NCBI GenBank assembly: GCA_017440465.1
Contig: JAFSHF010000023.1
Location: forward strand, 1 to 33,514
From: Clostridia bacterium
GTDB lineage: Bacteria; Bacillota; Clostridia; Oscillospirales; QAKW01
Direction: 5' to 3'
Length of the DNA: 33,514 nt
A program made the position numbers and the translations under genes. Each line of letters begins with the position of its first letter. The first letter of the stretch is position 1. Below the pieces are notes generated by a model. It made no database searches. It saw only the letters and a list, made by a program, of their open reading frames with translations, and was not told the origin of the DNA. Of this stretch, positions 1,270 to 14,626 are shown piece by piece.

Positions 1270-1980
1270 GTGAAAAAAGTATTCAATATAATCAAAACCA
1301 CCGTCGTCTGGCTTATGATATTGCTTGCCGTATCGATGATGATCTTCACCGTCATTTCCTGCACAACCTTTAATCGAAATGACCGCAGCCTTTTCGGCTA
1401 TAAAATGTATATTGTTAATTCCGACTCTATGTCCGCCACCGATTTTAAGGCCGGCGCATTGATCTTTGCCAAAGAGGTAGACCCCGCCACCCTGAAGGAG
1501 GGCGATATCATCACCTTTATGTCGCAGGACACCGATTTCTTCGGCGAGACCATCACCCATAAGATCCGCAGGATCACCACCGATGCTGAAGGCAATCCCG
1601 GCTTTATTACCTACGGTACCACCACTGATACCGATGATGAGACCATCGTTACCTATCCGTATGTATTGGGTAAATATCAAAGCAACATCCCCGGTCTCGG
1701 AACCTTCTTCAATTTCTTGAAGACTACCCCCGGCTATTTCATCTGCATCTTTACCCCCTTTATGCTGATCATCTTATATGAAGGCTTGAGGTTCTTCAGC
1801 CTGTTCCGCCGATACAAAAAAGAGCAGATGGAGGAAATGCAGGCGGAAAGAGAGCAGATCGAAGCCGCTAAAGAAGAAAATGCAAAAATGCTGGAAGAAC
1901 TCAAGGCGCTCAAAGCCCAATTCGAAAGCACCCAACCGAGCGAAGAGCAGGAACCTGCCAAGGAAGAAGCTCCGGTTTAA
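1270..1980 (+). CDS. sipW: SipW-like signal peptidase I (copy 1) with coiled-coil tail
   Basis: A 236-residue membrane protease with start GTG at 1270 after GAGAGGG. TM1 spans about residues 10-31. The catalytic Ser lies in NSDSMS (Ser53), and a THKIRR motif gives His97 in place of the usual bacterial Lys. That Ser/His pair defines the archaeal/ER-type SipW class. TM2 spans about 154-176, which leaves the C-terminus in the cytoplasm. The tail (about 183-220) is a Glu/Lys/Ala-rich predicted coiled coil followed by an acidic Pro/Glu end. SipW enzymes release TasA/camelysin-type proteins, several of which follow. The residues after the catalytic Ser (SMSATD) differ from the usual SMEP seen in copy 2, hinting at different substrates or activity. 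Confidence 0.9.
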   Translation: MKKVFNIIKTTVVWLMILLAVSMMIFTVISCTTFNRNDRSLFGYKMYIVNSDSMSATDFKAGALIFAKEVDPATLKEGDIITFMSQDTDFFGETITHKIRRITTDAEGNPGFITYGTTTDTDDETIVTYPYVLGKYQSNIPGLGTFFNFLKTTPGYFICIFTPFMLIILYEGLRFFSLFRRYKKEQMEEMQAEREQIEAAKEENAKMLEELKALKAQFESTQPSEEQEPAKEEAPV

Positions 1981-2064
1981 AATCAATGTACTTACATACA
2001 AAGAAATTCTTTGTTGTAAGCGTGGTAAAAAAATGTGTTTTGTCTTCAATTATTTTTACCCCGC

Positions 2065-2171
2065 GCCGTCCCATCTTCTCTCCGATGGGCGGCAATCAAA
2101 GCACTCAAGGGGATGAAAAAATCGCCTTGACCTTGCTAAAAGGCGATTTCCTTTGAGTGTTTTGATTGCCG
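2065..2171 (+). repeat. Two-hairpin intergenic element, copy 1
   Basis: Hairpin A: GCCG (2065-2068), an unpaired T, then CCCATC (2070-2075) facing GATGGG (2084-2089) and CGGC (2090-2093). Hairpin B: CGGCAATCAAA (2090-2100) pairs with TTTGATTGCCG (2161-2171) and continues through a G.T pair, C-G and ACTCAAGG with CCTTTGAGT. An inner perfect 10-bp stem (2119-2128 with 2140-2149) holds an 11-nt loop. CGGC is shared, so its pairing in A and in B is exclusive. No T-run follows, so it is not a normal terminator. The same layout recurs at 3997-4069 and 8094-8205. Confidence 0.85.
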
Positions 2172-2260
2172 AAGATTTCGGCAAACCAGCTTCTGCATTG
2201 ACCAACAACCGCAGATGCCGGTTCATAAATTATATGTTGGAAAAAAGGAGGTCATTAAAA

Positions 2261-3967
2261 ATGACAAAGCGGAAGACAACCAAGCGCGCGTTGCTGTTCA
2301 GCGCCTTGTCCTTGCTGATGTGCGTAGCCATGCTGATCGGCAACACATATGCTTGGTTCACAGACAGTGTTACCTCCGGTAGCAATAAGATCGTTGCCGG
2401 TACTTTGAAACTGGACCTTGAAGTACTTGAGAACGGAACATGGAGTTCTATCAAGGAATCTCGGGCACCCATCTTTAATTATGAAAAGTGGGAACCCGGT
2501 TATACCGACGTGAAGATCCTCAAGGTTGAGAATGAAGGCAACCTTGCGCTGAAGTGGTATGCCAAATTCGTATGCGGCAAAAAACTTTCCATCCTTGCCG
2601 ATGTAATTGATGTATATGTCTGCCCGAGTGAGACTACGGAACTTACATATCCTGCCGATCGTGATCTTACCGGTTACACCCATGTTGGCACTTTAAAACA
2701 GTTTGTGGATACCATTGAAACTACGACGTATGGCCATCTTGCTACGGGCAAGTCTGCCTATCTGGGCATTGCTCTGAAAATGCAAGAGAGTGCCGGCAAT
2801 GAGTATCAGGGGTTAGACCTCGGTGCAGCGTTTGATATTCAGATTCTTGCCACTCAGGATACCGTTGAATCCGACAGCTTTAACAATCAGTACGATGCTA
2901 ATGCAGAATATGAAAAGAGTGCTGATGTTTGGGACGGCACAGCGGATACTTCTTGGTACAACGATACCGATACTGAGTTCGTGATTACCACTGCTGAGCA
3001 GCTTGCAGGCCTTGCTAAACTCGTTGACGAAGGTAATAACTTCGCAGGTGAGACTATTAAGCTTGCCGCAGATTTGGATCTTGCGTCCATACCTTTTAAT
3101 CCCATTGGTCATTCTGCAAATGGGAAGTCCTTTAATGGTACTTTTGACGGTCAAGGGCATACAATTTCCAATATGTACGAGCAAAGCGACCTTGGTGCAT
3201 GGCAGTACGAGGGTGAATACTATGGTCTCTTTGCTTACACCAACGGTGCTGTTATTAAAAACGTAACTATTGCAGATGCATACATCTCCAGCGGTAGAAA
3301 CGAAGCTGCAGGTGTTGTGGGCAATGCAGTGGACACAACGTTCTCTGACATTACAATTTCCAACACTACTTTAATTGCCTATAACAATTCGGCCGGCGGC
3401 GTTGCGGCAGAGTGCTACGGAAATTGCTCTTTCACAAACATTGTTGTCGATGAAGATACCGTTATTGGTCCTCTTTGGGGCACATATGATGTTCGCCTGG
3501 GTGGCGTAGTTGGTTTGGTTCATGCCGGTAACAATGTGACATTCTCTAATATCACTGTTGCTTGCCAATTAGATGCAATCAATGACGTTGCCGCAAACTA
3601 CCAGTATTGGTTATACCGTTATAGCGGAATGCTGATTGGTCATGTTGACGGTGTGAACGGAGTCGCTGATCCCACGGGATATGTCACTTGTGAAAACGTA
3701 AAAGTAATCTACGGCGATTGGGTCAACTATCATTACTGCGAAGATGCCGATCTTGGTGCCGGTAGCTATAACGGTCCCGGAGAGTACAAATACGCACGTG
3801 TTGAAGCAGGAACAGGAACAGACGGGATTGATCTTTCTGCTTGTAACCACAATGCAGATGAGTCCCATAATGTACTTATAGTCTTTGATCAACTGTTTGG
3901 TGGTGGTCAGGGTATTAAGGGTCTGAAAACCTATGACGGCGTAACCGTTGTTTATAACAATAAATAA
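2261..3967 (+). CDS. SipW-dependent surface protein with GLUG-like repeats
   Basis: A 568-residue exported protein with ATG at 2261 after AAGGAGG (2245-2251). An upstream in-frame start at 2153 lacks a site and falls in the repeat element, so it is rejected. The basic N-terminus, hydrophobic stretch (about 10-28) and NTYAWFTD (28-35) form a SipW-type signal, cut probably after Ala31. Residues about 36-210 are a camelysin/TasA-like beta domain ending in ATQDTVESDSF. That end is nearly the same in the protein at 6057. From about 240 come TAEQLAGLAKLV and beta-strand repeats such as GLFAYTNGAVIKNVTI, resembling GLUG repeats of adhesins. No membrane or sorting anchor is present. It is likely a matrix or adhesive component processed by the neighbouring SipW enzymes. 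Confidence 0.85.
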   Translation: MTKRKTTKRALLFSALSLLMCVAMLIGNTYAWFTDSVTSGSNKIVAGTLKLDLEVLENGTWSSIKESRAPIFNYEKWEPGYTDVKILKVENEGNLALKWYAKFVCGKKLSILADVIDVYVCPSETTELTYPADRDLTGYTHVGTLKQFVDTIETTTYGHLATGKSAYLGIALKMQESAGNEYQGLDLGAAFDIQILATQDTVESDSFNNQYDANAEYEKSADVWDGTADTSWYNDTDTEFVITTAEQLAGLAKLVDEGNNFAGETIKLAADLDLASIPFNPIGHSANGKSFNGTFDGQGHTISNMYEQSDLGAWQYEGEYYGLFAYTNGAVIKNVTIADAYISSGRNEAAGVVGNAVDTTFSDITISNTTLIAYNNSAGGVAAECYGNCSFTNIVVDEDTVIGPLWGTYDVRLGGVVGLVHAGNNVTFSNITVACQLDAINDVAANYQYWLYRYSGMLIGHVDGVNGVADPTGYVTCENVKVIYGDWVNYHYCEDADLGAGSYNGPGEYKYARVEAGTGTDGIDLSACNHNADESHNVLIVFDQLFGGGQGIKGLKTYDGVTVVYNNK

Positions 3968-3996
3968 TTTAGAGTTCTTTCTTGTTCATTTTAAGT

Positions 3997-4069
3997 CCGT
4001 CCCATCCCTCCCTGCGAGGGATGGGCGGCAATCAAAGCCTACATCTGCGGATGTAGGTTTTGATTGCCG
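3997..4069 (+). repeat. Two-hairpin intergenic element, copy 2 (short distal stem)
   Basis: It begins 30 nt after the preceding stop. Hairpin A: CCG, T, CCCATCCCTC (4001-4010), loop CCTGC, GAGGGATGGG (4016-4025), CGG. Hairpin B: CGGCAATCAAA (4026-4036), a G.T pair, CCTACATC (4038-4045), loop TGCG, GATGTAGG (4050-4057) and TTTGATTGCCG (4059-4069), giving a continuous stem of 20 pairs. The base stem equals copies 1 and 3, but the distal stem is unrelated in sequence. Confidence 0.85.
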
Positions 4070-4113
4070 AAGGCAACAATATTGCCAAATTGCAAACGAA
4101 GGAGAGATCGTTT

Positions 4114-4725
4114 ATGAGCAATGCATTAAAGAAGATCTGGAACATCCTATCCACCGCATTGGTGGTGCTGATGGTTTCCTGCGCGGTGTTTTTGATGGGA
4201 TCGCGTTTGGTGGGCTATCAATGCTATACCGTCATTTCCGGCAGTATGGAGCCCAAATACAGCGTGGGCGATCTGATCTATGTCAAAAAGGTGGACCCAA
4301 CTGCCATCCATGTCGGCGACGACATTACCTTTGTCCTCAACGAGGATTTGGTGGTCGCCACCCATAGAGTAGTGCGGATCGATGTGGAAAATCAACGCTT
4401 CTATACCAAGGGCCTTGCCAACGAGATCGAGGACAACGATCCCGTACATTTCAATAATTTGATCGGTGTACCGCAGTTTTCCATCCCGAAGCTCGGGTAT
4501 GTTTCGGATTTTATTCAGCATCCGCCCGGAACCTATATCACCATCGGCATCGGAATTATTCTGATCCTTGCCGTCTTTCTGTCCGATATGATCGGTAAGA
4601 AGAAAGAGGATGAGGAAGAAGATGCCACCGCGGTGCAGGCCGAGATGGATACCGCCGCCGAAGAGAATGAACGGCTGAAGGCAGAGCTTGCGCAGCTTCG
4701 TGCAGAAATGGAAAGCAAGAAATAA
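4114..4725 (+). CDS. sipW: SipW-like signal peptidase I (copy 2) with coiled-coil tail
   Basis: A 203-residue protease with ATG at 4114 after AAGGAGAG (4099-4106); the longer reading from 4060 has no such site. TM1 spans about residues 10-30. The canonical SGSMEP motif gives catalytic Ser44, and VATHRVV gives His84, the Ser/His dyad of SipW enzymes. GDLIYVKKV and GDDITFV follow the family pattern. TM2 spans about 140-159. A KKK stop-transfer and a cytoplasmic tail (about 165-203) come next, rich in Glu/Ala/Leu heptads and probably coiled coil. It stands directly before the surface gene at 4850. It probably processes SipW-type precursors here, alone or together with copy 1, whose tail could pair with this one. 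Confidence 0.92.
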   Translation: MSNALKKIWNILSTALVVLMVSCAVFLMGSRLVGYQCYTVISGSMEPKYSVGDLIYVKKVDPTAIHVGDDITFVLNEDLVVATHRVVRIDVENQRFYTKGLANEIEDNDPVHFNNLIGVPQFSIPKLGYVSDFIQHPPGTYITIGIGIILILAVFLSDMIGKKKEDEEEDATAVQAEMDTAAEENERLKAELAQLRAEMESKK

Positions 4726-4741
4726 CTACGGTTTCACATTT

Positions 4742-4769
4742 ATATCGATCAAGAAATCTTGAACGATAT
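4742..4769 (+). other. Near-perfect intergenic hairpin/palindrome
   Basis: ATATCG (4742-4747) and CGATAT (4764-4769) enclose an A.A mismatch and TCAAG/CTTGA around an AAAT loop. CTTGAA recurs at 4758-4763 and twice more before the ribosome binding site. No T-run follows. It could be an operator or an mRNA structure; function unknown. Confidence 0.4.
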
Positions 4770-4849
4770 GAACTTGAAATATCAATCTTGAAGAAAGGAG
4801 GACCCCCCCTATGGAAAAGAAAATTCAATCAAAAAAAGGAGAAACGAAG

Positions 4850-5974
4850 ATGAACAAAAGAAAGATTTTTTTGGTAGCTGTGTCTGTCTGCGTGATTGCG
4901 ATTTTGTCGCTGAGCACCTTAGCATGGTTCACCGATGAAGACCAGGTCACCAATAAGTTTTACGTTGGCGACACTACCACCGACGCCGATAAAGTATTCG
5001 GCATCGATCTTTGGGAAACGGCAGACAAGGATGAAGACGGCACCATCACCGACGCCGAGACCTATGGCAAAGATACAAAAGACGACACCGGCATTACTTA
5101 TGAAGATATCCTTCCCGGCGGACTCTACGATAAAAACCCCTACTTCACCAATACCGGTATCCACGGTCAGTACCTCAGAGCGATCGTCACTGTAACCGAA
5201 GCGGATATTCTTAAGGTTGCGATGACTCCCAAGGGCTCCGAAGTAAGTGTTTGGGAAGAGGTCAAACTGTTCCTGCCCGGAACAAGCGATAAGTGGGAAC
5301 TTGCACATAAGTATCACACCAACAAGGATACCTTTGTATTCGTATACTACTACAATGAGGTTCTGGAGGCAGGCAAAACGACCGACGCCTTGTTTGATGC
5401 GGTCGTAATGCCCACCGAGCTTACCAAGGAGCAGGCGGCTGAGATCGATAACTTCGAGATCAAGATCGTCGGTCAGGTGATCCAGTCCGAGAATCTGGTC
5501 GATGTTGCCAATGCCAAGGAAGCCTTTGCGAAATATTGGGATGAAGAAGGCGTTGTCGCGGGCGTAGTGATCGATAAGGATCTGGCTAATGCTGATTCAA
5601 CGGTTTCGATCTCTTATCCCGTTACCGGCAACCTCGGCACCTTTACTGCAACGCCCATCAGCTATGACAGCGCAAACTACACCGACCCTGATATGCCCGG
5701 TGTTCTTATGACCAGCGATGCTACCGCAACCATCAAATCGGGCGCAAGCTTCATTGATGTCCCCGCCGATGTACCTAACGTTACGATGTATCTCAAAAAT
5801 ACCGACCTTACCATCGAAGCCGGCAGTAAGTTTATTACCGGTGCTCACGGTACCGGTCAGATCATGCTTGAGAATGTTACCATCAATGGCGAAAAGGTTA
5901 CTTCCGCCAATATCGATGCCATCGTTGCAGAATATGTGACCGGTTTCAATAGCAGCAACTTTATGGTTTGGTAA
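4850..5974 (+). CDS. SipW-dependent camelysin-like protein with EF-hand-type loop
   Basis: A 374-residue protein. ATG at 4850 has AAAGGAG at 4835-4841. A second in-frame ATG at 4811 also has AAAGGAGG (4794-4801), with a run of seven C between them, and would add 13 charged residues. The shorter start gives a normal signal peptide, so it is preferred. The hydrophobic stretch (about 6-22) and STLAWFTD (22-29) form a SipW-type signal. DKDEDGTITDAE (59-70) fits a calcium-binding EF-hand loop at positions 1, 3, 5, 6, 8 and 12. The camelysin-like domain runs to about 225, with the QVIQSEN motif echoed in the protein at 8243. The remainder is a beta-rich extension without an anchor. It is a likely secreted subunit, possibly calcium-stabilised. 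Confidence 0.85.
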   Translation: MNKRKIFLVAVSVCVIAILSLSTLAWFTDEDQVTNKFYVGDTTTDADKVFGIDLWETADKDEDGTITDAETYGKDTKDDTGITYEDILPGGLYDKNPYFTNTGIHGQYLRAIVTVTEADILKVAMTPKGSEVSVWEEVKLFLPGTSDKWELAHKYHTNKDTFVFVYYYNEVLEAGKTTDALFDAVVMPTELTKEQAAEIDNFEIKIVGQVIQSENLVDVANAKEAFAKYWDEEGVVAGVVIDKDLANADSTVSISYPVTGNLGTFTATPISYDSANYTDPDMPGVLMTSDATATIKSGASFIDVPADVPNVTMYLKNTDLTIEAGSKFITGAHGTGQIMLENVTINGEKVTSANIDAIVAEYVTGFNSSNFMVW

Positions 5975-5981
5975 ATTCCAT

Positions 5982-6020
5982 AACTGCACTCGCTTGTCGG
6001 CGCGGGAACTGCAGTTTTTA
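5982..6020 (+). terminator. Intrinsic terminator within the surface locus
   Basis: AACTGCA (5982-5988) pairs with TGCAGTT (6010-6016). An inner CTCGC/GCGGG stem extends it, and it runs into TTTTT. It would separate the gene at 4850 from that at 6057, or act as partial read-through control, since no clear promoter is visible before 6057. Confidence 0.65.
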
Positions 6021-6056
6021 AACAATGCCGACAAATATTAAAGGAGACGATTTAAA

Positions 6057-8078
6057 ATGACTAAAACAAAAAGCACCAAGCGTGCTCTGCTGACAAGCGC
6101 CCTCGCACTTCTTTTGTGTGTTTCGATGCTGATCGGCAGCACCTTCGCTTGGTTTACCGATAGTGTTACCTCTGCTGGTAACATCATCAAGTCCGGTAAG
6201 CTCGATGTAACAATGGAGTGGAAGGACGCTACCGCAACCGGTAAGCAGCTGACTTATAAGGATGCATCCGAGGGTGCGATCTTTAACTACGAGCTTTGGG
6301 AGCCCGGCTATGTGGAAGCAAAGAACATTAAGATCAGCAATGTCGGCACCTTGGCACTGAAGTATCATCTGAATATCGCCGCAAACGGCGAAGTCAGCGA
6401 CCTGGCTGATGTTATCGATGTTTATTTTGCCGAGGGCGAATATACTCTTGCAAACAGAGATATGGCAGAGCTTACATTAGTTGGTACTCTGAGCGATATT
6501 CTGGATGGGATGCCTGCCAATATGGCCGGCGACCTTGAGGCAGATACCGCTGATACCGTCACCATCGCTCTTAAGATGCAGGAGAGCGCAGGCAACAAGT
6601 ATCAGGATCTTGCAATCGGCACTGATTTCAAGGTGATCTTGATGGCAACTCAGGATAATGTTGAGTTTGATAGTTTTGATGAGAACTACGATGATATCGA
6701 AGTTCCCGATAAGGATATCAAGGTTATCGATGGCAATACCTACTATTATCTTGAAGACGGTAACGTTGTTCTCAGAAGCGTTCCTTACGGAAATGTAGGT
6801 TCTACCTTTAACTTTAGAGACGATATAACGATTCTCGGTATTGGTACAGATAAAGGCGATACAAATGGTCCTGTATTCAGCAAGTCTTCGCCCATTGAGA
6901 GCATTACTCTAAACGAGGGATTAACCGCAATCAATGCAAGAGCCATTACCGGTATCAAAACTCTGAAGTCTATCAACTTCCCATCCACCCTTAAATTCAT
7001 TGGGGAACAGGCTTTTGCCCAAGCCGGTATGACCGAACTTACGATTCCTTCGAATGTTGAAGAAATCAAATTTGGTGCGTTCAGAGATATGGCAAATCTG
7101 ACTACCGTTACCATCGAAGGCAATCCGACCCTTGCGAACTATGTATTCCGTTCTTGCCCCAATCTAACCAGCATCTATCTTTTGGGTGATGATGTTCAGT
7201 TTGAAGGCGGCGGTCAGTTTGCAACCCATCAAGACACCGGATATTCCAATCCTTTGACAATCTATGTTAAGAATGCTACCGTTGCTGCAAGAGTCTATGC
7301 GGCGCAGTCTTCCGCAACAGACTACGAAGTCAAGATCCTCGGCGATGCAGCCGACGGCAGCGATGCAACTGCTGTAGAGCAGGTGAAGAACAACACCCAG
7401 CTCGACGAAGCGATTAAGAACGGAGCATCTACTGTAGTTTTGGGCTCCGGTACTTATTCTACACCTGCGTCTGCCAAGGGCAAGACTCTGACCATCATCG
7501 GTAATGGCGATACTGTTGTTGATGTGCTGGATTACGGCGCAGCTGAAGGTGATGGCGATTATAGCCTTGAGGGTTCGACCGTAACCTTTGAAAATGTTAC
7601 CATCACCACCAAGACAACCTACTTCCCCGGTTATGTAAGAATGAAGGGTATTTACAATAACTGCACCATCAACGGTGTTTGGACTCTCTATGATAACGGC
7701 GAGTTCAATAACTGTACCTTTAACGTTTCCGGCGATGTATACAACGTTTGGACTTGGGGCGCAGCGAAGGCTACCTTCAATAATTGCACCTTCAATAACG
7801 ATGGTAAAGCCATCCTCGTTTATGGCGGCGGCAGCACCAAACTGACTGTAAACGGTTGTACCTTCAACGATAACGGCGGCTTGACTTCCAAGAAGGCTGC
7901 CATTGAGGTTGGTGCAGGCTACGGCTCTTCCTTTGATCTGAACATTAGTGATACCGTTGTCAACGGCTATGAGATCAATGATGAAGGCATCAACACCGGT
8001 ACTACTCTGTGGGGCAATAAAAACTCCATGGGAACCGATAAACTCAACGTTGTGGTTGACGGCGTAGACGTTTATTAA
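6057..8078 (+). CDS. SipW-dependent surface protein with LRR_5 and beta-helix regions
   Basis: A 673-residue protein with ATG at 6057 after AAAGGAG (6040-6046). The first 35 residues nearly match the protein at 2261: MTKTKSTKRALL, a hydrophobic core, then STFAWFTD. The camelysin-like module runs to about 212 and ends ATQDNVEFDSF. Residues about 250-390 hold BspA-type leucine-rich repeats, for example LKSINFPSTLKFIGEQAF and AFRDMANLTTVTI. From about 440 to the end, Asn/Cys/Thr-rich repeats with NNCTING, FNNCTFN and VNGCTFN look like a right-handed beta-helix. BspA-type repeats are common in adhesins of gut and oral bacteria. There is no C-terminal anchor, so it would be held by fibre assembly or other wall contacts. 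Role in adhesion is inferred. Confidence 0.87.
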   Translation: MTKTKSTKRALLTSALALLLCVSMLIGSTFAWFTDSVTSAGNIIKSGKLDVTMEWKDATATGKQLTYKDASEGAIFNYELWEPGYVEAKNIKISNVGTLALKYHLNIAANGEVSDLADVIDVYFAEGEYTLANRDMAELTLVGTLSDILDGMPANMAGDLEADTADTVTIALKMQESAGNKYQDLAIGTDFKVILMATQDNVEFDSFDENYDDIEVPDKDIKVIDGNTYYYLEDGNVVLRSVPYGNVGSTFNFRDDITILGIGTDKGDTNGPVFSKSSPIESITLNEGLTAINARAITGIKTLKSINFPSTLKFIGEQAFAQAGMTELTIPSNVEEIKFGAFRDMANLTTVTIEGNPTLANYVFRSCPNLTSIYLLGDDVQFEGGGQFATHQDTGYSNPLTIYVKNATVAARVYAAQSSATDYEVKILGDAADGSDATAVEQVKNNTQLDEAIKNGASTVVLGSGTYSTPASAKGKTLTIIGNGDTVVDVLDYGAAEGDGDYSLEGSTVTFENVTITTKTTYFPGYVRMKGIYNNCTINGVWTLYDNGEFNNCTFNVSGDVYNVWTWGAAKATFNNCTFNNDGKAILVYGGGSTKLTVNGCTFNDNGGLTSKKAAIEVGAGYGSSFDLNISDTVVNGYEINDEGINTGTTLWGNKNSMGTDKLNVVVDGVDVY

Positions 8079-8093
8079 TTTGATTTTTTAAGT

Positions 8094-8205
8094 CCGTCCT
8101 AACTCCCCTTGCGGGAGTTAGGCGGCAATCAAAGCACTCAAGGGGCTTTGAAAAATCGCCTCGACCTTGCTAAAAGGCGGTTCCCTTTGAGTGTTTTGAT
8201 TGCCG
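8094..8205 (+). repeat. Two-hairpin intergenic element, copy 3
   Basis: It begins 16 nt after the preceding stop. Hairpin A: CCG, T, CCTAACTCCC (8098-8107), loop CTTGC, GGGAGTTAGG (8113-8122), CGG. Hairpin B: CGGCAATCAAA (8123-8133) with TTTGATTGCCG (8195-8205), extended by G.T, C-G and ACTCAAGGGG/CCCTTTGAGT. An inner AATCGCCT/AGGCGGTT stem carries the loop segment GACCTTGCTAA shared with copy 1. Hairpin A differs from copies 1 and 2 in both arms, yet pairing is kept. Confidence 0.85.
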
Positions 8206-8242
8206 AGCGGCTCACTTAAATCTTGCAAAGGAGGGCGTGATA

Positions 8243-8815
8243 TTGGGCAAGATCAAAATGAAAATACTTGTTGTTGCTCTTGCGGCAACGATGATGACGT
8301 TTATAAGCACATCAACCCTTGCATACTACTCAACCGTCGGAAAAGCCACCAATGTCGTGACCTCCGGTAATATTCAATTTAAAATTCACGAAATGACCGA
8401 TCAGGGCAAGGAGTTCCCCAAGGAGGGCGTGTATATCGTCCCCGGTGATGTTGTTTCCAAGAAGGTCAGCATCGAAAGCGATTGCGATCATCCCTTCTAT
8501 CTGCGCGTCAAGATGGTATACGGCATCGATGCGCAGGAACTGACGGCAGAGGATTGCTTTAAACTTCATATCGACGAGAAGCATTGGAAACTGCGCGACG
8601 GTTGGTACTATTATACCGATATCGTTGACCCCGGTGAAACCACGCCCGATGTCTTCTCCCATGTGGAGATCGTCGGTTCTGAGGTGGACAACAGCTACAT
8701 CGGTAAGACCTTGACACTCACCGTTAAGGCCCAAGCGGTTCAAAGCGAAAATAATCCCATCACCGACGGTAACACCTATACCGCCTCCGGATGGCCGAAG
8801 GAGGCAGACAAATGA
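8243..8815 (+). CDS. SipW-dependent TasA/camelysin-like protein
   Basis: A 190-residue protein, about the size of single-domain camelysins. TTG at 8243 is chosen because AAAGGAGG (8227-8234) lies 8 nt ahead; GTG at 8237 is too close and ATG at 8258 too far. The hydrophobic stretch (about 6-22) then STSTLAYYSTVGKATNVVTSG is a SipW-type signal with AYYS in place of AWFTD. The mature part has the beta-sandwich features VPGD, FYLRVKM, DPGETTPDVF and KAQAVQSENN. Two Cys (in DCDHP and EDCFKL) could form a disulfide. It shares an ATGA overlap with the next gene, so the two products are probably made together. It is the closest match here to a fibre-forming major subunit. Confidence 0.85.
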   Translation: MGKIKMKILVVALAATMMTFISTSTLAYYSTVGKATNVVTSGNIQFKIHEMTDQGKEFPKEGVYIVPGDVVSKKVSIESDCDHPFYLRVKMVYGIDAQELTAEDCFKLHIDEKHWKLRDGWYYYTDIVDPGETTPDVFSHVEIVGSEVDNSYIGKTLTLTVKAQAVQSENNPITDGNTYTASGWPKEADK

Positions 8816-9474
8816 AAAAGATCATAGCATTATTTGTGGCTTGTATCATCGCTCTTTCCGTTGCCCTGCCTGCATTTGCGGCAGAGGGAAAGGTGACCTA
8901 CAGTGGCAACGCGGGGAACTTTATTTTTGAACCGGGCAGTGAACATTCGCCGACCGATCTGTTCCCGAACTTTAAGGGCGTGATGCCCGGCGACATCTTG
9001 ACGCAGAAGATCACCGTGAAAAACGACTTAGACAATAAGGTCAAGGTCAAAATTTATCTGCGCTCTCTCGGCGCGCAGGAAGATTCTGTGGAGTTTCTCT
9101 CGCAGCTTGGCTTGAAGGTCGCCAAGAGCAGCGACAACGAGATGGCATATATGTTCGATGCCGCCGCCAATGAGAAAGCGCAACTCACCGATTGGGTCTG
9201 TCTGGGCACGCTCTATTCCGGCGGTAAGGTGAATCTGGACGTCACATTGAACGTTCCCGTTTCGTTGGAGAATGAATTTCAAAGCAAGATCGGCAAGCTG
9301 GATTGGGAATTTAAGATCGAAGAATTTCCGATCGAATCGAGCGATCCTCAATCCCCGAATACCGGCGACGATTTTCGCTTGGGCTTATGGATCGCTGTGA
9401 TGCTCTGCTCGCTGTCGATGATCATCATCCTTTTAGTATGGAGAAAAAGGGATAAAGAAAAAGCAGATCAGTAA
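8812..9474 (+). CDS. Secreted protein with sortase-type C-terminal sorting signal
   Basis: A 220-residue protein with ATG at 8812 after AAGGAGG (8798-8804), overlapping the previous stop by ATGA. It has a classical Sec signal peptide (about 1-24, ending AFAAEG), unlike its SipW-type neighbours. The mature beta-rich domain has MPGDILTQKITVKND, as in camelysin folds. The C-terminus carries SPNTGDD (about 185-191), a hydrophobic segment (about 194-212) and a WRKRDKEK basic tail, the layout of a sortase signal. (S/P)PxTG motifs are known substrates of the Clostridioides difficile class B sortase. No sortase is in this window. It may be a wall anchor or basal subunit for the SipW-type proteins; this is inference. 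Confidence 0.8.
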   Translation: MKKIIALFVACIIALSVALPAFAAEGKVTYSGNAGNFIFEPGSEHSPTDLFPNFKGVMPGDILTQKITVKNDLDNKVKVKIYLRSLGAQEDSVEFLSQLGLKVAKSSDNEMAYMFDAAANEKAQLTDWVCLGTLYSGGKVNLDVTLNVPVSLENEFQSKIGKLDWEFKIEEFPIESSDPQSPNTGDDFRLGLWIAVMLCSLSMIIILLVWRKRDKEKADQ

Positions 9475-9494
9475 TAAGCAAAAGGAGGAAAGGT

Positions 9495-10142
9495 ATGAAG
9501 TTCCGAGCCAAAAACAGAATATACATACAAATTGCCTCGGTACTCAGCCTATGCGCGATCATTCTTTGGGGCATTCTCGGCGCAGGCACATCGCTGGCTT
9601 GGTTTACCGATGCCTCCCCCGAGATCAATAATATTTTCCATTTAGCTGAGTTTGATCTGGCGGTATCCCACCGCCTGCCCGACGGTACTTGGGAAGAGAT
9701 CGACAGTCAGACCAAGGTTTTTGATGAAAAGGCTTTATATGAGCCCGGTTATACGCAGGTCGTTTATCTGAAGGTACATAATAATGGAACAATTCCCTTT
9801 GAGTTTTATACCGCAGTCAATGTCAACGGCTGTATTAAAGCGAAAAATGTGTTCGGTCAGGAGTTTATGCTGCAGGATCATCTCAAATTCGGCATCACTA
9901 CCGCCGATAGCGAGGCGGCAATGGAAAGTAGCGTTTCCGACCGCGAAAAGGCGGCAGAGATCGCCGATATGCCCTTAAAGAATTATGATACCGAGACTGC
10001 GGAATTGAAGGACGGTGAAACCAAGTATATTGCCCTGATTGTCCGTATGCCCGAGGAGGTCGGCAACATTGCCAACTACCGCGGCGACACCGTCCCGAAG
10101 GTCGAACTTGGCATCACCGTCAAGGCAGACCAGATAAAATAA
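9495..10142 (+). CDS. SipW-dependent surface protein, small
   Basis: A 215-residue protein with ATG at 9495 after AAAGGAGG (9481-9488). The N-terminus MKFRAKNR, a hydrophobic stretch (about 11-30) and TSLAWFTDAS (32-41) form a SipW-type signal. The mature part shares features with the modules at 2261 and 6057: a Trp-bearing strand near 57, YEPGYTQVVYLKVHNNG, and an EVG near the end like the ESAG sites there. It stops after the single camelysin-like domain, with no repeats or anchor. It lies 20 bp after the sortase-type gene and belongs to the same transcription unit. Probably a minor or accessory subunit. Confidence 0.83.
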   Translation: MKFRAKNRIYIQIASVLSLCAIILWGILGAGTSLAWFTDASPEINNIFHLAEFDLAVSHRLPDGTWEEIDSQTKVFDEKALYEPGYTQVVYLKVHNNGTIPFEFYTAVNVNGCIKAKNVFGQEFMLQDHLKFGITTADSEAAMESSVSDREKAAEIADMPLKNYDTETAELKDGETKYIALIVRMPEEVGNIANYRGDTVPKVELGITVKADQIK

Positions 10143-10178
10143 CGACCGACAGCGAATTTTTGAAAGGAGGATGATGGT

Positions 10179-11090
10179 GTGAAAAAATTATATGAAGAAT
10201 TTTTCCGTATTCCTAAATTTGGGAAAATACGTGAAAAAGTAATGCTCACCCGCGTGGTCACGACCGCGGTAATTATGGTGATGTGTCTTTCCGCTATGGG
10301 AATTACCGCCTATGCCTATTTTTCTTGCAGTATCGCCTCCTCCTCCAATAAAATCAAAGCGGCAAGCTTTGAAGCAACGGTTTCCATAACAATAAAAGGA
10401 AATTCTGTTCCCGTTGTAAAGAAAGACGATGTGCAGACCGCCGATTTGGAAGCGGGAGATTATACGATCAAACTCTCCGGAGAAGGCTGTTCGGCAGATA
10501 AAGGCTTTTGCGTGATTACCATCGGTGAGAAAAAATACTATACCGATCAGATCGGTTTGGTTGCCGAGAAGGGTCTGACAGACGCGGATGTGGAATTTGA
10601 TCTGCACTTATCGGAACCTGCAAAGATCGAAATTTCCTCCCATTGGGGCACCTCGGTGTATTACGGCTATAAAGAGGAAGGCGGAACAGAAATTTTTATC
10701 GAGGATGACGACGATCTGGATCTGACCGCCCAAACAACGAATGTTGACGACAGTAAATCCGAAGAGATCACCGATCAGCCCGAAGAAAAGCCGTCGGATA
10801 CACAGGAGGAACCGGAAACACCTGCTCCGCAGGCATCGGAGATCGTAACAACTCCTTCTGCCGAGACAACAAAACCGGCTGAAACGACTCCGCCCGAAAC
10901 GACGGAGCCGACCGATACAACAGAGCCGAGTACGTCGACCTCGGAGCCTGAAACAACTCCGCCGACGCAATCGACAGAGTCGACCGAAACCGAACTCACA
11001 GAAACGGAAAACACAGAACCCGCAGAAAACCCGACCGCTATCGAAAATACGCAGACAGCAGGCGCACCCATCGATAAGACAAAAGAATAA
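10179..11090 (+). CDS. Secreted protein with SipW-like signal and Thr/Pro/Glu-rich tail
   Basis: A 303-residue protein with GTG at 10179 after AAAGGAGG (10163-10170). A long charged N-terminal segment (1-24), a hydrophobic stretch (about 25-46) and AYAYFSCSIASSSNKIKAASFEA follow, a variant of the SipW signal lacking AWFTD. A compact domain spans about residues 57-180 and ends in an acidic DDDDLD run. From about 190 to the end the chain is low-complexity, rich in Thr, Glu, Pro and Ser (repeats such as TTEPT and TTPP), like an extended stalk or a glycosylated linker. No anchor follows. It ends the locus before a strong terminator. It may bridge the fibre to the wall; function unknown. Confidence 0.8.
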   Translation: MKKLYEEFFRIPKFGKIREKVMLTRVVTTAVIMVMCLSAMGITAYAYFSCSIASSSNKIKAASFEATVSITIKGNSVPVVKKDDVQTADLEAGDYTIKLSGEGCSADKGFCVITIGEKKYYTDQIGLVAEKGLTDADVEFDLHLSEPAKIEISSHWGTSVYYGYKEEGGTEIFIEDDDDLDLTAQTTNVDDSKSEEITDQPEEKPSDTQEEPETPAPQASEIVTTPSAETTKPAETTPPETTEPTDTTEPSTSTSEPETTPPTQSTESTETELTETENTEPAENPTAIENTQTAGAPIDKTKE

Positions 11091-11097
11091 AAAGAAT

Positions 11098-11134
11098 CAA
11101 AAAATGACGGTTGCACTGCAACCGTCATTTTTTT
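11098..11134. terminator. Bidirectional terminator between convergent units
   Basis: TGACGGTTGCA (11105-11115), a single C, and TGCAACCGTCA (11117-11127) are flanked by A6 and T7. It can end the surface locus on + and the zinc/kinase unit on -. Confidence 0.85.
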
Positions 11135-11763: not shown

Positions 11764-12639
11764 TTATATATGGCTTTTGCGGATTTGTAAACTTTTAAAT
11801 TTGCCAATGAGCGCAAAGATCAAAAAGATCACCAGATTGACCGCGACCACGGTGGCACCCATTGGGATGGGGGCTTGGGTGGGGGCAAAGGAGATGAGGA
11901 TCCCCAACGCGGCCGCGCCGACACCGACCAAGGCGGAGCAGAGCATCACATCGCGGAACCGCTTAAATACCTGCATCGCCGCCAATGCGGGGAAGATGAC
12001 CAGAGCAGAGATCAGCAAAGACCCCACCAAATTCATTGCAATGACAATGACGACCGCGGTAATGGCGGCGATCAATAGTTGATAGGCTTGGGTGTGCAGT
12101 CCGGTGGCTGCTGCAAATTCTTCATCAAAAGTGATCGCAAAGATCTGCCGATAAAATAAAAAGAACAGTAAAAGGACCACCGCCGCCATAATACCGCAGA
12201 TCCATAGATCCGCCGTCTTTAAGGTCAAGATCGAAGTGGAACCGAATAACGTGGTGCAAACATCCCCTGCGACATTGCCGCCGTTGCCGAAAAGATTGAT
12301 GATCAGGTAGCCCAGTGCCAAAGAACCCACCGCCCAAAGTGCCAGCGAGGCATCCCCGCGGATCTTCGCCTTCTTGCCGCCGCGCAACAGAAGAATGGCG
12401 GCGATGACGGTAATCGGCAGGACCAAAAGCATCTCATCGGAGAGTTTCAAAGCGGTGGCGATCGCCAAGGCGCCAAAGGCCACGTGGGAAAGCCCGTCGC
12501 CGATAAAACTCATCCGCTTGAGCACCAGCGAAACGCCCAAAAGGGAAGCGCAGAGCGCTACCAAGATCCCGACAATCAGGGCGCGAACAGCAAAGGGATA
12601 GGAAAGGATATGACCGATCTGTTGAAGCATCTCAAGCAT
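11764..12639 (-). CDS. znuB: Zinc/manganese ABC transporter permease (ZnuB family)
   Basis: A 291-residue membrane protein. ATG at 12639 is chosen for AAAGGAGGGA six bases before it; a longer reading would start inside the ATPase gene. Eight or nine hydrophobic helices are visible. Family motifs include RALIVGILVALCASLLGV and GDGLSHVAFG near residues 50-60, and LLISALVIFPALAA late in the chain. It overlaps the upstream ATPase gene by 8 bp, implying translational coupling. It forms the membrane channel that receives Zn2+ from the lipoprotein encoded upstream. The same family also imports manganese, but the zur gene and operator favour zinc. Confidence 0.9.
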   Translation of the reverse strand: MLEMLQQIGHILSYPFAVRALIVGILVALCASLLGVSLVLKRMSFIGDGLSHVAFGALAIATALKLSDEMLLVLPITVIAAILLLRGGKKAKIRGDASLALWAVGSLALGYLIINLFGNGGNVAGDVCTTLFGSTSILTLKTADLWICGIMAAVVLLLFFLFYRQIFAITFDEEFAAATGLHTQAYQLLIAAITAVVIVIAMNLVGSLLISALVIFPALAAMQVFKRFRDVMLCSALVGVGAAALGILISFAPTQAPIPMGATVVAVNLVIFLIFALIGKFKSLQIRKSHI

Positions 12640-13318
12640 GGGCTGTCCCTCCTTTGAAATAGTCCTCCGCCGCCCCAAAAAAGGCGGAATCCTTGCCGAT
12701 ATGCAGAATCTTATCGGCATATTTTTTTGCCGCCTCCAAATCGTGGGAGATCATAATGATGGTGATCTTCTGTTCTTGATTCAGCCGTCGGATGATCTCG
12801 TAAAGTTCGGCGGTGGCGTGGGGATCCAATGCCGCCGCAGGCTCATCCAGCAAAAGCAGTTCGCGGGTCGCCATCAGCGACCGCGCCAAAAGCACCTTGC
12901 GCTGTTGCCCGCCCGAAAGCTCCCGAAAACAACGGTTTTCCAAAGGGAGCAGTTCCAACTGTTCCATCACCGTGTGGGCGCGCTCTTTTTCTTCCTTGGA
13001 ATAAAAGGGGAAAAGCCCGCCGCGGTTTAACCCGCCCGAGCGAATGATCTCTTTGACCGAGGCAGGGAAATCCTTTTGCGACGGCGTCTGCTGGGGGAGA
13101 TACCCAATCCGATTGGCTTTGAGCCCATCGGCAAAGAGAATCTCACCCGCCAAGGCTTGATTTAAACGCAGTAAGGCTTTTGCCAGCGTGCTTTTGCCCG
13201 ATCCGTTTTCCCCTAATATAAAAAGGTAGTCGCCTTTATTTAAGGAAAAATCGATTCCGGTGGCAACGGTTTTTCCTTCATATCCAAGTGTTAAATTGCG
13301 GCATTCCAATTGCGCCAT
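12632..13318 (-). CDS. znuC: Zinc ABC transporter ATP-binding protein (ZnuC family)
   Basis: A 228-residue ABC ATPase, normal length for the family. Walker A is GENGSGKS (about 36-43), the Q-loop is in YLPQQ, the signature is LSGGQQRK (about 137-144), Walker B is LLLLDEP and the switch His is in ISHDLE. It begins 1 bp after the stop of the solute-binding lipoprotein gene and overlaps the permease gene at its end. It energises metal import by ATP hydrolysis at the cytoplasmic face. The translation signal before its ATG is weak, so it may depend on coupling from the gene before it. Confidence 0.92.
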   Translation of the reverse strand: MAQLECRNLTLGYEGKTVATGIDFSLNKGDYLFILGENGSGKSTLAKALLRLNQALAGEILFADGLKANRIGYLPQQTPSQKDFPASVKEIIRSGGLNRGGLFPFYSKEEKERAHTVMEQLELLPLENRCFRELSGGQQRKVLLARSLMATRELLLLDEPAAALDPHATAELYEIIRRLNQEQKITIIMISHDLEAAKKYADKILHIGKDSAFFGAAEDYFKGGTAHA

Positions 13319-13319
13319 A

Positions 13320-14213
13320 TCAGTATATCACTTTCTTTAACGTCTCTAAATTTTCTTTCATTATATCAAGATAAGCTTCGGTCATCTGCTCCACCGATTG
13401 CATTGAATTTAAGGTCAGGATCTGCATCCCCTCAGTATGGCTGCTTTCGATGACCGTCTGCGCCAGATCGGGCTTGGATTGCTCCAAGATCAAAAGGGCA
13501 GGTACCCGATGGGTATCAGCCGCATCCGCCAGCATAGTTATAGTGGATGCGCTCGCTTCGGTCTCGGCAGAACAGCCGTCAAAGGCGGCATAGCAAGTCA
13601 GCCCATAGTCTGCCGCAAGATACCGAAACGGATACCGATCCGCAAAGATCAAAACGCGGTTTTTGGCGGCACCGCAGATTTGCCGGTATTCGTTGTCTAA
13701 GGCTGCCAACTGCGCTGTGTATGCGTTGGCATTGGCTTTCAGTTCTTTCTTTAGATCGGGTGCAAGGACGCAAAGGGCATCGCAAATGGCATCCACCCCT
13801 TTTTGAGCGTTATTAAGGGAAAGCCAGGTGTGCTCATCTTCTGTGTGCTCGTGTTCTTCTTCGGTATGGTCGTGGGGGAGTGCCAAAAGGGTGGAATGTT
13901 CCGCCAGATTCAGCTTGTTTTTGTGTTCCTTCGGGAGCCAGTCTTCGGAAGTTCCGCCGTTGCAGATCAAAAGATCGGCTTGTTGCAAGGTTGCAAAATC
14001 CAAGGCAGAGGGCTCAAAACTGTGCAGATCCGCACCGTTGCCCAAAAGGCGCAGATCAAAGCGATCTGCTTGGTCCCCTAAGATGTTGCGGGTCCAATCG
14101 TAAGAAGCAAATAAAGTGCAGAGTATGAGCGGCTTTTCGTTTTGCCGCTTGGGCGCGGCGCACCCACTCAAAAGGAGGATAAGAATTAATAAGAAGGAAA
14201 GAAAACGTTTCAT
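13320..14213 (-). CDS. znuA: Zinc-binding lipoprotein of the ABC transporter (ZnuA family)
   Basis: A 297-residue cluster A-I solute-binding protein. ATG at 14213 follows AAAAGGAGGG; a longer reading would start inside zur. The signal peptide ends in LLLSGC, giving a lipid-modified Cys18. ADLHSFEPS provides the first metal His (His64). A His/Glu/Asp-rich loop (HDHTEEEHEHTEDEH, residues 114-128) is a hallmark of zinc chaperone loops. Downstream, RVLIFADRYPFRYLAADYGL supplies a further conserved region. It captures Zn2+ outside the membrane and hands it to the permease. It overlaps the zur stop by ATGA. Confidence 0.9.
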   Translation of the reverse strand: MKRFLSFLLILILLLSGCAAPKRQNEKPLILCTLFASYDWTRNILGDQADRFDLRLLGNGADLHSFEPSALDFATLQQADLLICNGGTSEDWLPKEHKNKLNLAEHSTLLALPHDHTEEEHEHTEDEHTWLSLNNAQKGVDAICDALCVLAPDLKKELKANANAYTAQLAALDNEYRQICGAAKNRVLIFADRYPFRYLAADYGLTCYAAFDGCSAETEASASTITMLADAADTHRVPALLILEQSKPDLAQTVIESSHTEGMQILTLNSMQSVEQMTEAYLDIMKENLETLKKVIY

Positions 14214-14626
14214 TGCTCGCTCCCTCCTTTTGCGCGGCAACCGCACCGCCCGAATAAAACCGAGCGATACTCATCCACTGTGAAGCCGTTTTTCTTGAAG
14301 ATCTCGTTTAAAAGAAGAGCGGATTGCTCTTCTTCCATATGCATCAGTTTGCCGCAGTCCAGGCATTTTAAATGCAGATGCTCGTGGCAATGCGCGCCCG
14401 CCTTCCGATAGAGTGCACAGCGGGTGCCCTCCTGCTCACTTTTATGGAGCAGCTGCTCTTCGGCCATCTTACCGACCAAGCGGTAAACGGTGCTTTTGCC
14501 CGGTGCGTCGGCACCGTATTGCGCCATCAAAGCTTCCGCCAACGCATCGGCTGTATAGGATTGATCGGGGTTGCGATCCATCAGTTCCAGGATCTGCCGC
14601 CGCGATTTTGTCTGATAATGCGCCAT
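14210..14626 (-). CDS. zur: Fur-family regulator, probable Zur
   Basis: A 138-residue Fur-family repressor. The winged-helix part (about 1-75) includes SYTADALAEAL and STVYRLVGKMAE. The HCHEHLHLKCLDCGK segment supplies a His cluster and the first CxxC of a structural zinc site, and CGC near the C-terminus supplies the second. It is the first gene of the zinc uptake operon and overlaps the lipoprotein gene by 4 bp. A perfect 7-1-7 palindrome lies between its promoter and start, so it most likely represses its own operon when zinc is plentiful. Fur or PerR specificity cannot be excluded from sequence alone, but the operon partners indicate zinc. Confidence 0.88.
   Translation of the reverse strand: MAHYQTKSRRQILELMDRNPDQSYTADALAEALMAQYGADAPGKSTVYRLVGKMAEEQLLHKSEQEGTRCALYRKAGAHCHEHLHLKCLDCGKLMHMEEEQSALLLNEIFKKNGFTVDEYRSVLFGRCGCRAKGGSEQ

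Follow-up and report, generated by a model that had tools for sequence, protein, structure and literature searches.

The intergenic two-hairpin element described here is a real RNA family that does not belong among ordinary terminators, catalogued Rfam families or scattered repeats. Judging from its placement and from analogous systems, we put at roughly one in two the probability that it acts as an intercistronic mRNA processing and stabilization element, which would set expression ratios along the matrix operon. Three copies lie in the window, by which we mean the whole stretch of 33,514 nucleotides analysed, and its occurrence beyond its own genome is new relative to the original prediction, which had described these three copies from the sequence alone.

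Three copies of a two-hairpin element in a SipW locus

The copies occupy positions 2065-2171, 3997-4069 and 8094-8205, exactly where they had been placed before, and each separates a stop codon from the following gene on the same strand in the SipW locus (Table 1). In every copy a short GC-rich hairpin A abuts a long hairpin B. As predicted, no copy departs from the base stem CGGCAATCAAA/TTTGATTGCCG, and both arms of hairpin A are altered between copies with complete pairing in each. The upper half of hairpin B varies in length (44 vs 82-83 nt), copies 1 and 3 having a long hairpin B in common (95% identical) and copy 2 a short one. A further part of the element, absent from the original prediction, is the CCG or GCCG immediately 5' of hairpin A. 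Compared with dinucleotide shuffles, the minimum free energies (MFE) of copies 1, 2 and 3 gave z-scores of -7.4, -9.7 and -8.3, and no shuffle folded as well as the native sequence for any of the three. Near-matches to the base-stem half-site number 9 in the window against 1.5 expected, a count reached in 0 of 100 shuffles. The element is confined to these copies, as had been noticed for the window: across the whole 1.17-Mb metagenome-assembled genome (MAG; 65% complete) the covariance model finds no fourth element, and a fourth CGGCAATCAAA proved to be a lone half-site.

Table 1. Elements and genes of the SipW locus, in window coordinates
Feature	Positions	Strand	Remarks
SipW-type signal peptidase, upstream of copy 1	1270..1980	+	NF046067 E 1.5e-22; TIGR02228 over cut-off
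Copy 1, strand X	2065..2068	+	GCCG, then bulged T 2069; sequence same as Z; nascent fragment 2060-2093 folds with X:Y paired
Copy 1, hairpin A	2070..2089	+	CCCATC/GATGGG
Copy 1, hairpin B	2090..2171	+	Y = 2090-2093, Z = 2168-2171; long apical part; covariance model E 1.9e-10
SipW-dependent (TasA/camelysin-type) surface protein, between copies 1 and 2	2261..3967	+	TIGR04088 over cut-off; PF12389
Copy 2, strand X	3997..3999	+	CCG, then bulged T 4000
Copy 2, hairpin A	4001..4025	+	CCCATCCCTC/GAGGGATGGG
Copy 2, hairpin B	4026..4069	+	covariance model E 9.3e-16
Second SipW-type signal peptidase, downstream of copy 2	4114..4725	+	TIGR02228 E 1.2e-26
SipW-dependent BsaA-like protein, 3' side without element	4850..5974	+	TIGR04088, TIGR04090
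SipW-dependent LRR/beta-helix surface protein, upstream of copy 3	6057..8078	+	TIGR04088, LRR_5
Copy 3, strand X	8094..8096	+	CCG, then bulged T 8097
Copy 3, hairpin A	8098..8122	+	CCTAACTCCC/GGGAGTTAGG
Copy 3, hairpin B	8123..8205	+	upper part 95% like copy 1; covariance model E 7.5e-13
BsaA-type matrix protein, downstream of copy 3	8243..8815	+	TIGR04090 E 3e-7
Ordinary bidirectional terminator closing the gene run	11099..11133	+	16-pair stem and T-run; contrasts with the elements

The host locus is a co-directional gene run (1270-11090) encoding two SipW-type signal peptidases (both over the TIGR02228 cut-off), three SipW-dependent proteins (all over the TIGR04088 cut-off) and BsaA-like proteins. 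One element comes after the first signal peptidase, another after the first SipW-dependent protein and the third after the LRR surface protein; none was found in the gaps 4114-4725/4850-5974 and 5974/6057 of the run. The surroundings of the run have features of their own. Positions 85-295 form a structured region (z -5.2) that has no Rfam match and ends in a strong T-run terminator, with a 53-aa Cys_rich_KTR zinc-ribbon gene (369-530) downstream of it; the terminator-hairpin end and the zinc-ribbon gene are kept beside the element-bearing SipW loci L014 and L017 and likewise at a further locus, L130. This region is possibly an attenuated leader of the SipW locus. Adjoining the operon at 11764-14626 (minus strand) lies, judging by eye from the translations, a Fur-like regulator together with the membrane, ATPase and binding proteins of an apparent ABC transport cluster for a metal, possibly zinc.

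The element is found across gut Clostridia

When 85,000 species genomes were scanned for the exact base stem, with any interior allowed, 59 stretches emerged, about 40 of which came from gut Clostridia MAGs and had hairpin A at the 5' side; the remainder were unrelated chance matches without hairpin A. Among these, some 15-20 exact base-stem matches in unrelated phyla had neither hairpin A nor a surface context, and we treated them as chance and used them as background. A covariance model was then built from 38 pattern-found sequences, the seeds having been picked by the exact base stem. The search over Clostridia that had been proposed for checking the prediction yielded about 105 elements from gut Clostridia (n=105 at a score above about 36 bits). 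At E < 1e-6, 25 of 394 genomes of the same order have an element, five further carriers outside the order were found in the class (341 genomes; G403, G622, G623, G659 and G688), and in the phylum (348 genomes) there was none besides the own genome. Most of the genomes are MAGs, the E-values of the model are rough and genes were called by a simple script. The named carriers include Lachnospiraceae MAGs, Oscillospiraceae MAGs and the cultured Cuneatibacter caecimuris (DSM 29486; element at NZ_SGXF01000004.1, locus L023, 5085-5162), and copy number ranges from 1 to 8 per genome. Some elements stand in tandem within one intergenic gap, three in L049 (6425-6808, minus strand) and two in L031 (1442-1589, plus strand). 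For delimiting the hairpins we relied on a direct stem search, as placing A and B by global MFE split 45 of 110 elements wrongly.

Selection acts on a structure of the sense-strand RNA

The suggestion that paired changes reflect a selected RNA structure is upheld by strong covariation over 84 aligned copies, in which changes in the arms keep the pairing instead of destroying it. In this alignment 96.5% of the pair cells are paired, against 84.7% when shuffled and at most 52% when slid. Of the 29 pairs, 26 have changed on both sides, and the covariation score reaches 0.398, compared with 0.175 for shuffled and at most 0.112 for slid controls. Because the structure guided the alignment, the figures are biased in its favour, a tendency that the slid controls and the pattern-found set limit. 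Hairpin A comprises 5-13 pairs, and hairpin B has a CGGC/GCCG clamp topped by AAUCAAA/UUUGAUU. Covariation extends even to the base stem, with variants such as CAATTAAAG/TTTTAATTG, CGGGAACC/GGTTCCCG and CTGCAATC/GATTGCAG, and CAATCAAAG/CTTTTGATTG is conserved across orders. By inspection, the loops vary in length and sequence. Hairpin B is more similar within genomes than between them.

Wobble pairs reveal which strand folds. The 38-sequence set was found by a strand-symmetric pattern and oriented by hairpin A alone, hairpin B being unused, and on the sense strand its hairpin B has 75 G-U against 9 A-C cells (sign test 4e-14, in which the cells are not independent). The corresponding counts in the 84-copy alignment are 211 and 37. 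This large excess of G-U over A-C identifies the sense RNA as the folding strand.

A third strand competes for the base of hairpin B

The short strand directly 5' of hairpin A, which we call X, is usually CCG or GCCG followed by a bulged U. Its sequence equals that of Z, the 3' base strand of hairpin B, so that X and Z both complement Y, the 5' base strand of hairpin B. The spacer between the two hairpins is 0 nt in 103 of 109 elements, and X would turn single-stranded once hairpin B closes. In a register-free test that allowed one bulge or mismatch, at least three contiguous X:Y pairs were present in 93 of 103 abutting elements, compared with a mean of 43 and a maximum of 56 for shuffled X and with 15 when Y was slid by 3. 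Elements with a variant base (n=32) are informative as well: with their own Y, 18 showed X:Y pairing, against 11.5 with permuted Y (fraction 0.0015), and in a looser register 25 against 19.5 (fraction 0.008). The case is clearest between window copy 1 and the element of the same-genus locus L130, where X, Y and Z changed together, from GCCG/CGGC/GCCG to GCUG/CAGC/GCUG. A fixed-register test gave a weak excess (80.9 vs 79.3% shuffled), which we attribute to bulges and column dominance and which makes the register-free test the valid one; this weak count leaves the evidence for the X strand strong, yet below that for the main stems.

For all three window copies and L130, fragments that stop at the end of Y fold into the X:Y state, whereas full elements fold with Y:Z paired, which predicts a handover during transcription: in the nascent RNA, X:Y should form first and then give way to Y:Z. 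Whether X, Y and Z amount to a true RNA switch, in which the X:Y and Y:Z states differ in fate and the cell biases the choice, is a different matter, and we consider this quite doubtful. The bias might then come from upstream translation, an RNA-binding protein or the secretion state, and would retune the matrix-protein ratio; if this is true, surface operons would have an intercistronic regulatory RNA of a new class.

Elements are tied to surface operons

Essentially all 105 elements flank SipW/TasA/BsaA-type genes on the same strand, with hairpin A upstream, and about 101 of them are intercistronic. Most begin 12-94 nt from the preceding stop (median 27 nt from stop to X), the exception being some sipW-to-tasA junctions at which the element stands 300-400 nt past the upstream stop. 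A Shine-Dalgarno sequence is present in 95 of 104 cases, and with a median of 39 nt to the next start a promoter would hardly fit, which makes it probable that the downstream genes are reached by read-through. According to NCBIfam, the upstream proteins (n=73) include 37 TIGR04088 and 7 SipW proteins, and the downstream ones (n=84) 18 TIGR04088, 17 SipW and 17 BsaA proteins; neighbours that looked unclassified were mostly contig-truncated surface proteins. Three giant SipW-type surface proteins (L133 4173-10118, minus strand; L129 5039-10297, plus strand; L045 3-533, plus strand) have C-termini that look like Hint/intein modules, with a weak Pfam Hint match in L133 only, and possibly serve self-processing or ligation.

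Within the order (394 genomes), SipW-cognate proteins occur in 24 of 25 element carriers but in only 51 of 369 non-carriers (Fisher p 4e-18). The sole exception is G001, a genome of the same genus as the window, with an orphan element at L130 (5291-5372, minus strand). No SipW genes are found on its 9-kb contig, the element lies beside the same small zinc-ribbon gene, and its 5' flank resembles, by eye, that of window copy 1; it is apparently a relic of a lost operon. The five matches outside the order, which were not used in the model and thus form a partial hold-out, comprise two SipW-type loci and three loci of InlB-repeat/cadherin-like type, which ties the element to surface operons that are mainly, though not exclusively, of the SipW kind. 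At the latter three (L144, L145 and L147, from other orders), the element stands between an InlB-repeat-type surface protein and a cadherin-like secreted protein, outside the SipW system. Conversely, about 7 in 10 SipW-cognate genomes of the order have no element, and SipW/TasA-type operons without it often contain large intercistronic hairpins of other, unrelated kinds (L157, L158, L160, L161, L165, L167 and L169), which would be expected if the task is widespread and the element is one conserved solution to it.

Comparison with known systems

The statement that no named RNA family matches has stood up: Rfam 15 gave no match at the elements at gathering thresholds, and a permissive scan only chance matches, the best being mir-8512 (25 vs 90 bits). 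Literature searches for the sequence or for an intercistronic SipW RNA returned nothing relevant. ANTAR targets consist of two hairpins with conserved 6-nt loops, and we rejected this class by inspection on account of the variable loops. An integron attC site was likewise rejected by inspection, the base being CGGCAATCAAAG/CTTTTGATTGCCG and the R box GTTRRRY being absent. REP/BIME, BOX and ERIC sequences are intergenic palindromic repeats that fold in mRNA and are scattered and numerous. The element resembles them as an intergenic palindrome but differs in having 1-8 copies, at surface operons only and in one orientation. A mobile REP/MITE repeat was therefore rejected on distribution; instead of being scattered without regard to surface genes, strong whole-genome matches all lie at surface operons, bar the one relic locus. 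The main text of PMC8040213, on human-microbiome candidate RNAs, names no such context, and an earlier unnamed listing among its 3161 motifs is possible.

The best-studied analogue is the type III IR4 of the cip-cel operon of Ruminiclostridium cellulolyticum. There, a small stem-loop SL1, whose sequence is irrelevant, and a large stem-loop SL2, AU-rich at its base, direct the cut to the site between them; SL2 stays on the downstream mRNA, and the authors suspect RNase Y (PMC10311766). Both are intercistronic in an operon for an extracellular multi-protein structure, and in the element, too, we found a small upstream stem-loop, variable in sequence, followed by a large one with an AU-pair base as its lower stem. 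Unlike IR4, the element is conserved in sequence across orders, its hairpins abut, X competes for the base and its cleavage is putative. The SRPS stem-loops (PMC4423207, PMC8219983) are also stable stem-loops between genes of operons for complexes, and the element is indeed a stable stem-loop between co-directional cistrons; SRPS stem-loops, however, were found by folding energy and not as a sequence family, whereas the element is a covarying family. As to the operon itself, PMC7395162 describes for the same kind of operon in C. perfringens, sipW-bsaABCRSD, a short bicistronic sipW-bsaA mRNA and a full-length read-through mRNA, with a predicted terminator after bsaA and, in the passages covered, no two-hairpin element.

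What the element may do

The cip-cel IR4 and C. perfringens sipW-bsaA analogues lead us to favour processing with end protection over, in falling order of probability, partial termination, a regulated switch and readings at the DNA level. On this reading the element is a structured RNA that acts in cis within the polycistronic transcripts of SipW-dependent surface or matrix operons, and its parts run in the order X, hairpin A, Y, hairpin B, Z. Because X and Z are identical and both complementary to Y, hairpin A would fold first, lengthened by X:Y, and Y would go to Z as hairpin B closes, giving an end state of two abutting hairpins in a near-continuous helix with no single-stranded linker. An endoribonuclease of the RNase Y or III type might then cut at or beside the element, after which hairpin A would shield the 3' end of the upstream mRNA and hairpin B the 5' end of the downstream mRNA. 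Cutting and end protection together could thus keep cistrons of one operon at different levels. What the data establish is the structure with its covariation, the folding strand, the placement and the complementarity of the three strands; the cut, the protection, the enzyme and the ratio are inferred. Some points count against processing. Hairpins that stabilize mRNA seldom depend on primary-sequence conservation, and the retention of CAATCAAAG/CTTTTGATTG across orders is a hint of a specific binder; the long spacing at some sipW-to-tasA junctions is nearer to a 5'-leader role; and the IR4 cut site is single-stranded, whereas hairpins A and B abut.

Partial intrinsic termination, in which the apical hairpin and the paired UUUUGAUU tract would halt some transcripts after the upstream matrix gene and let others read through, is an unlikely alternative. 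The terminator with read-through reported after bsaA in C. perfringens (PMC7395162) speaks for it, as do the UUUU immediately after the apical stem in most copies and the likeness to internal terminators of ABC-importer operons in cellulolytic Clostridia, which are also intra-operonic, with long stems and poor U-tracts paired to the 5' side (PMC9045158). Unlike those terminators, the element has no U-tract at the stem end, scores negatively and possesses hairpin A and a conserved base. That it is not an ordinary terminator, as originally argued from the missing T-run, agrees with a mean of 1.95 T in the 8 nt after hairpin B and with negative median terminator scores for the apical hairpin (-24.8; 1 of 47 above 0), the whole of hairpin B (-51.8; 3 of 65) and hairpin A (-52.5; 0 of 65). 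Operon-terminal positions account for only 3-4 of 105 elements, the window operon closes with a separate ordinary T-run terminator, and termination leaves the conserved CGGC/GCCG base and X unexplained. About as probable, if anything a shade less so, would be a regulated element, in which a protein or the ribosome finishing the upstream gene favours X:Y or Y:Z and thereby switches processing, termination or downstream translation. The primary sequence of hairpin B conserved across orders, the mutually exclusive and covarying X:Y and Y:Z pairings and the upstream stops close to X would all suit such control; the loops, however, are not conserved, X:Y has just 3-6 pairs, so that the end state strongly favours hairpin B, and an unsystematic look noticed no regulator gene travelling with the element.

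Readings at the DNA level, as a mobile palindromic repeat or as a recombination site, folded from single-stranded DNA, for the shuffling of surface-gene cassettes, seem very improbable. The patchy distribution among genomes, the position after genes in same-strand paralogue arrays and the greater likeness of hairpin B within genomes could be taken in their favour, but tandem gene duplication explains this likeness, attC-like GTTRRRY boxes are not visible, the few copies per genome are all at surface operons in a single orientation, and strand-specific wobble and three-strand covariation show that the sense strand folds. Least credible of all, to the point of being negligible, is a chance or lineage-only repeat without function: the many SipW-cognate genomes that do without the element might suggest one, whereas the 84-copy covariation already contradicts it, as do the strand asymmetry and the independent matches at surface operons of other orders.

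For operons that build an extracellular fibre, how bacteria set protein ratios within the operon is still an open question, and only a few cases have been worked out in Clostridia. Having an RNA family that can be recognised and that goes with SipW-type surface operons in many gut families makes this question searchable and testable: such operons can be picked out in metagenomes by the element, compensatory mutants are ready-made, a cultured carrier exists, and the unusual three-strand base lends itself to direct testing.
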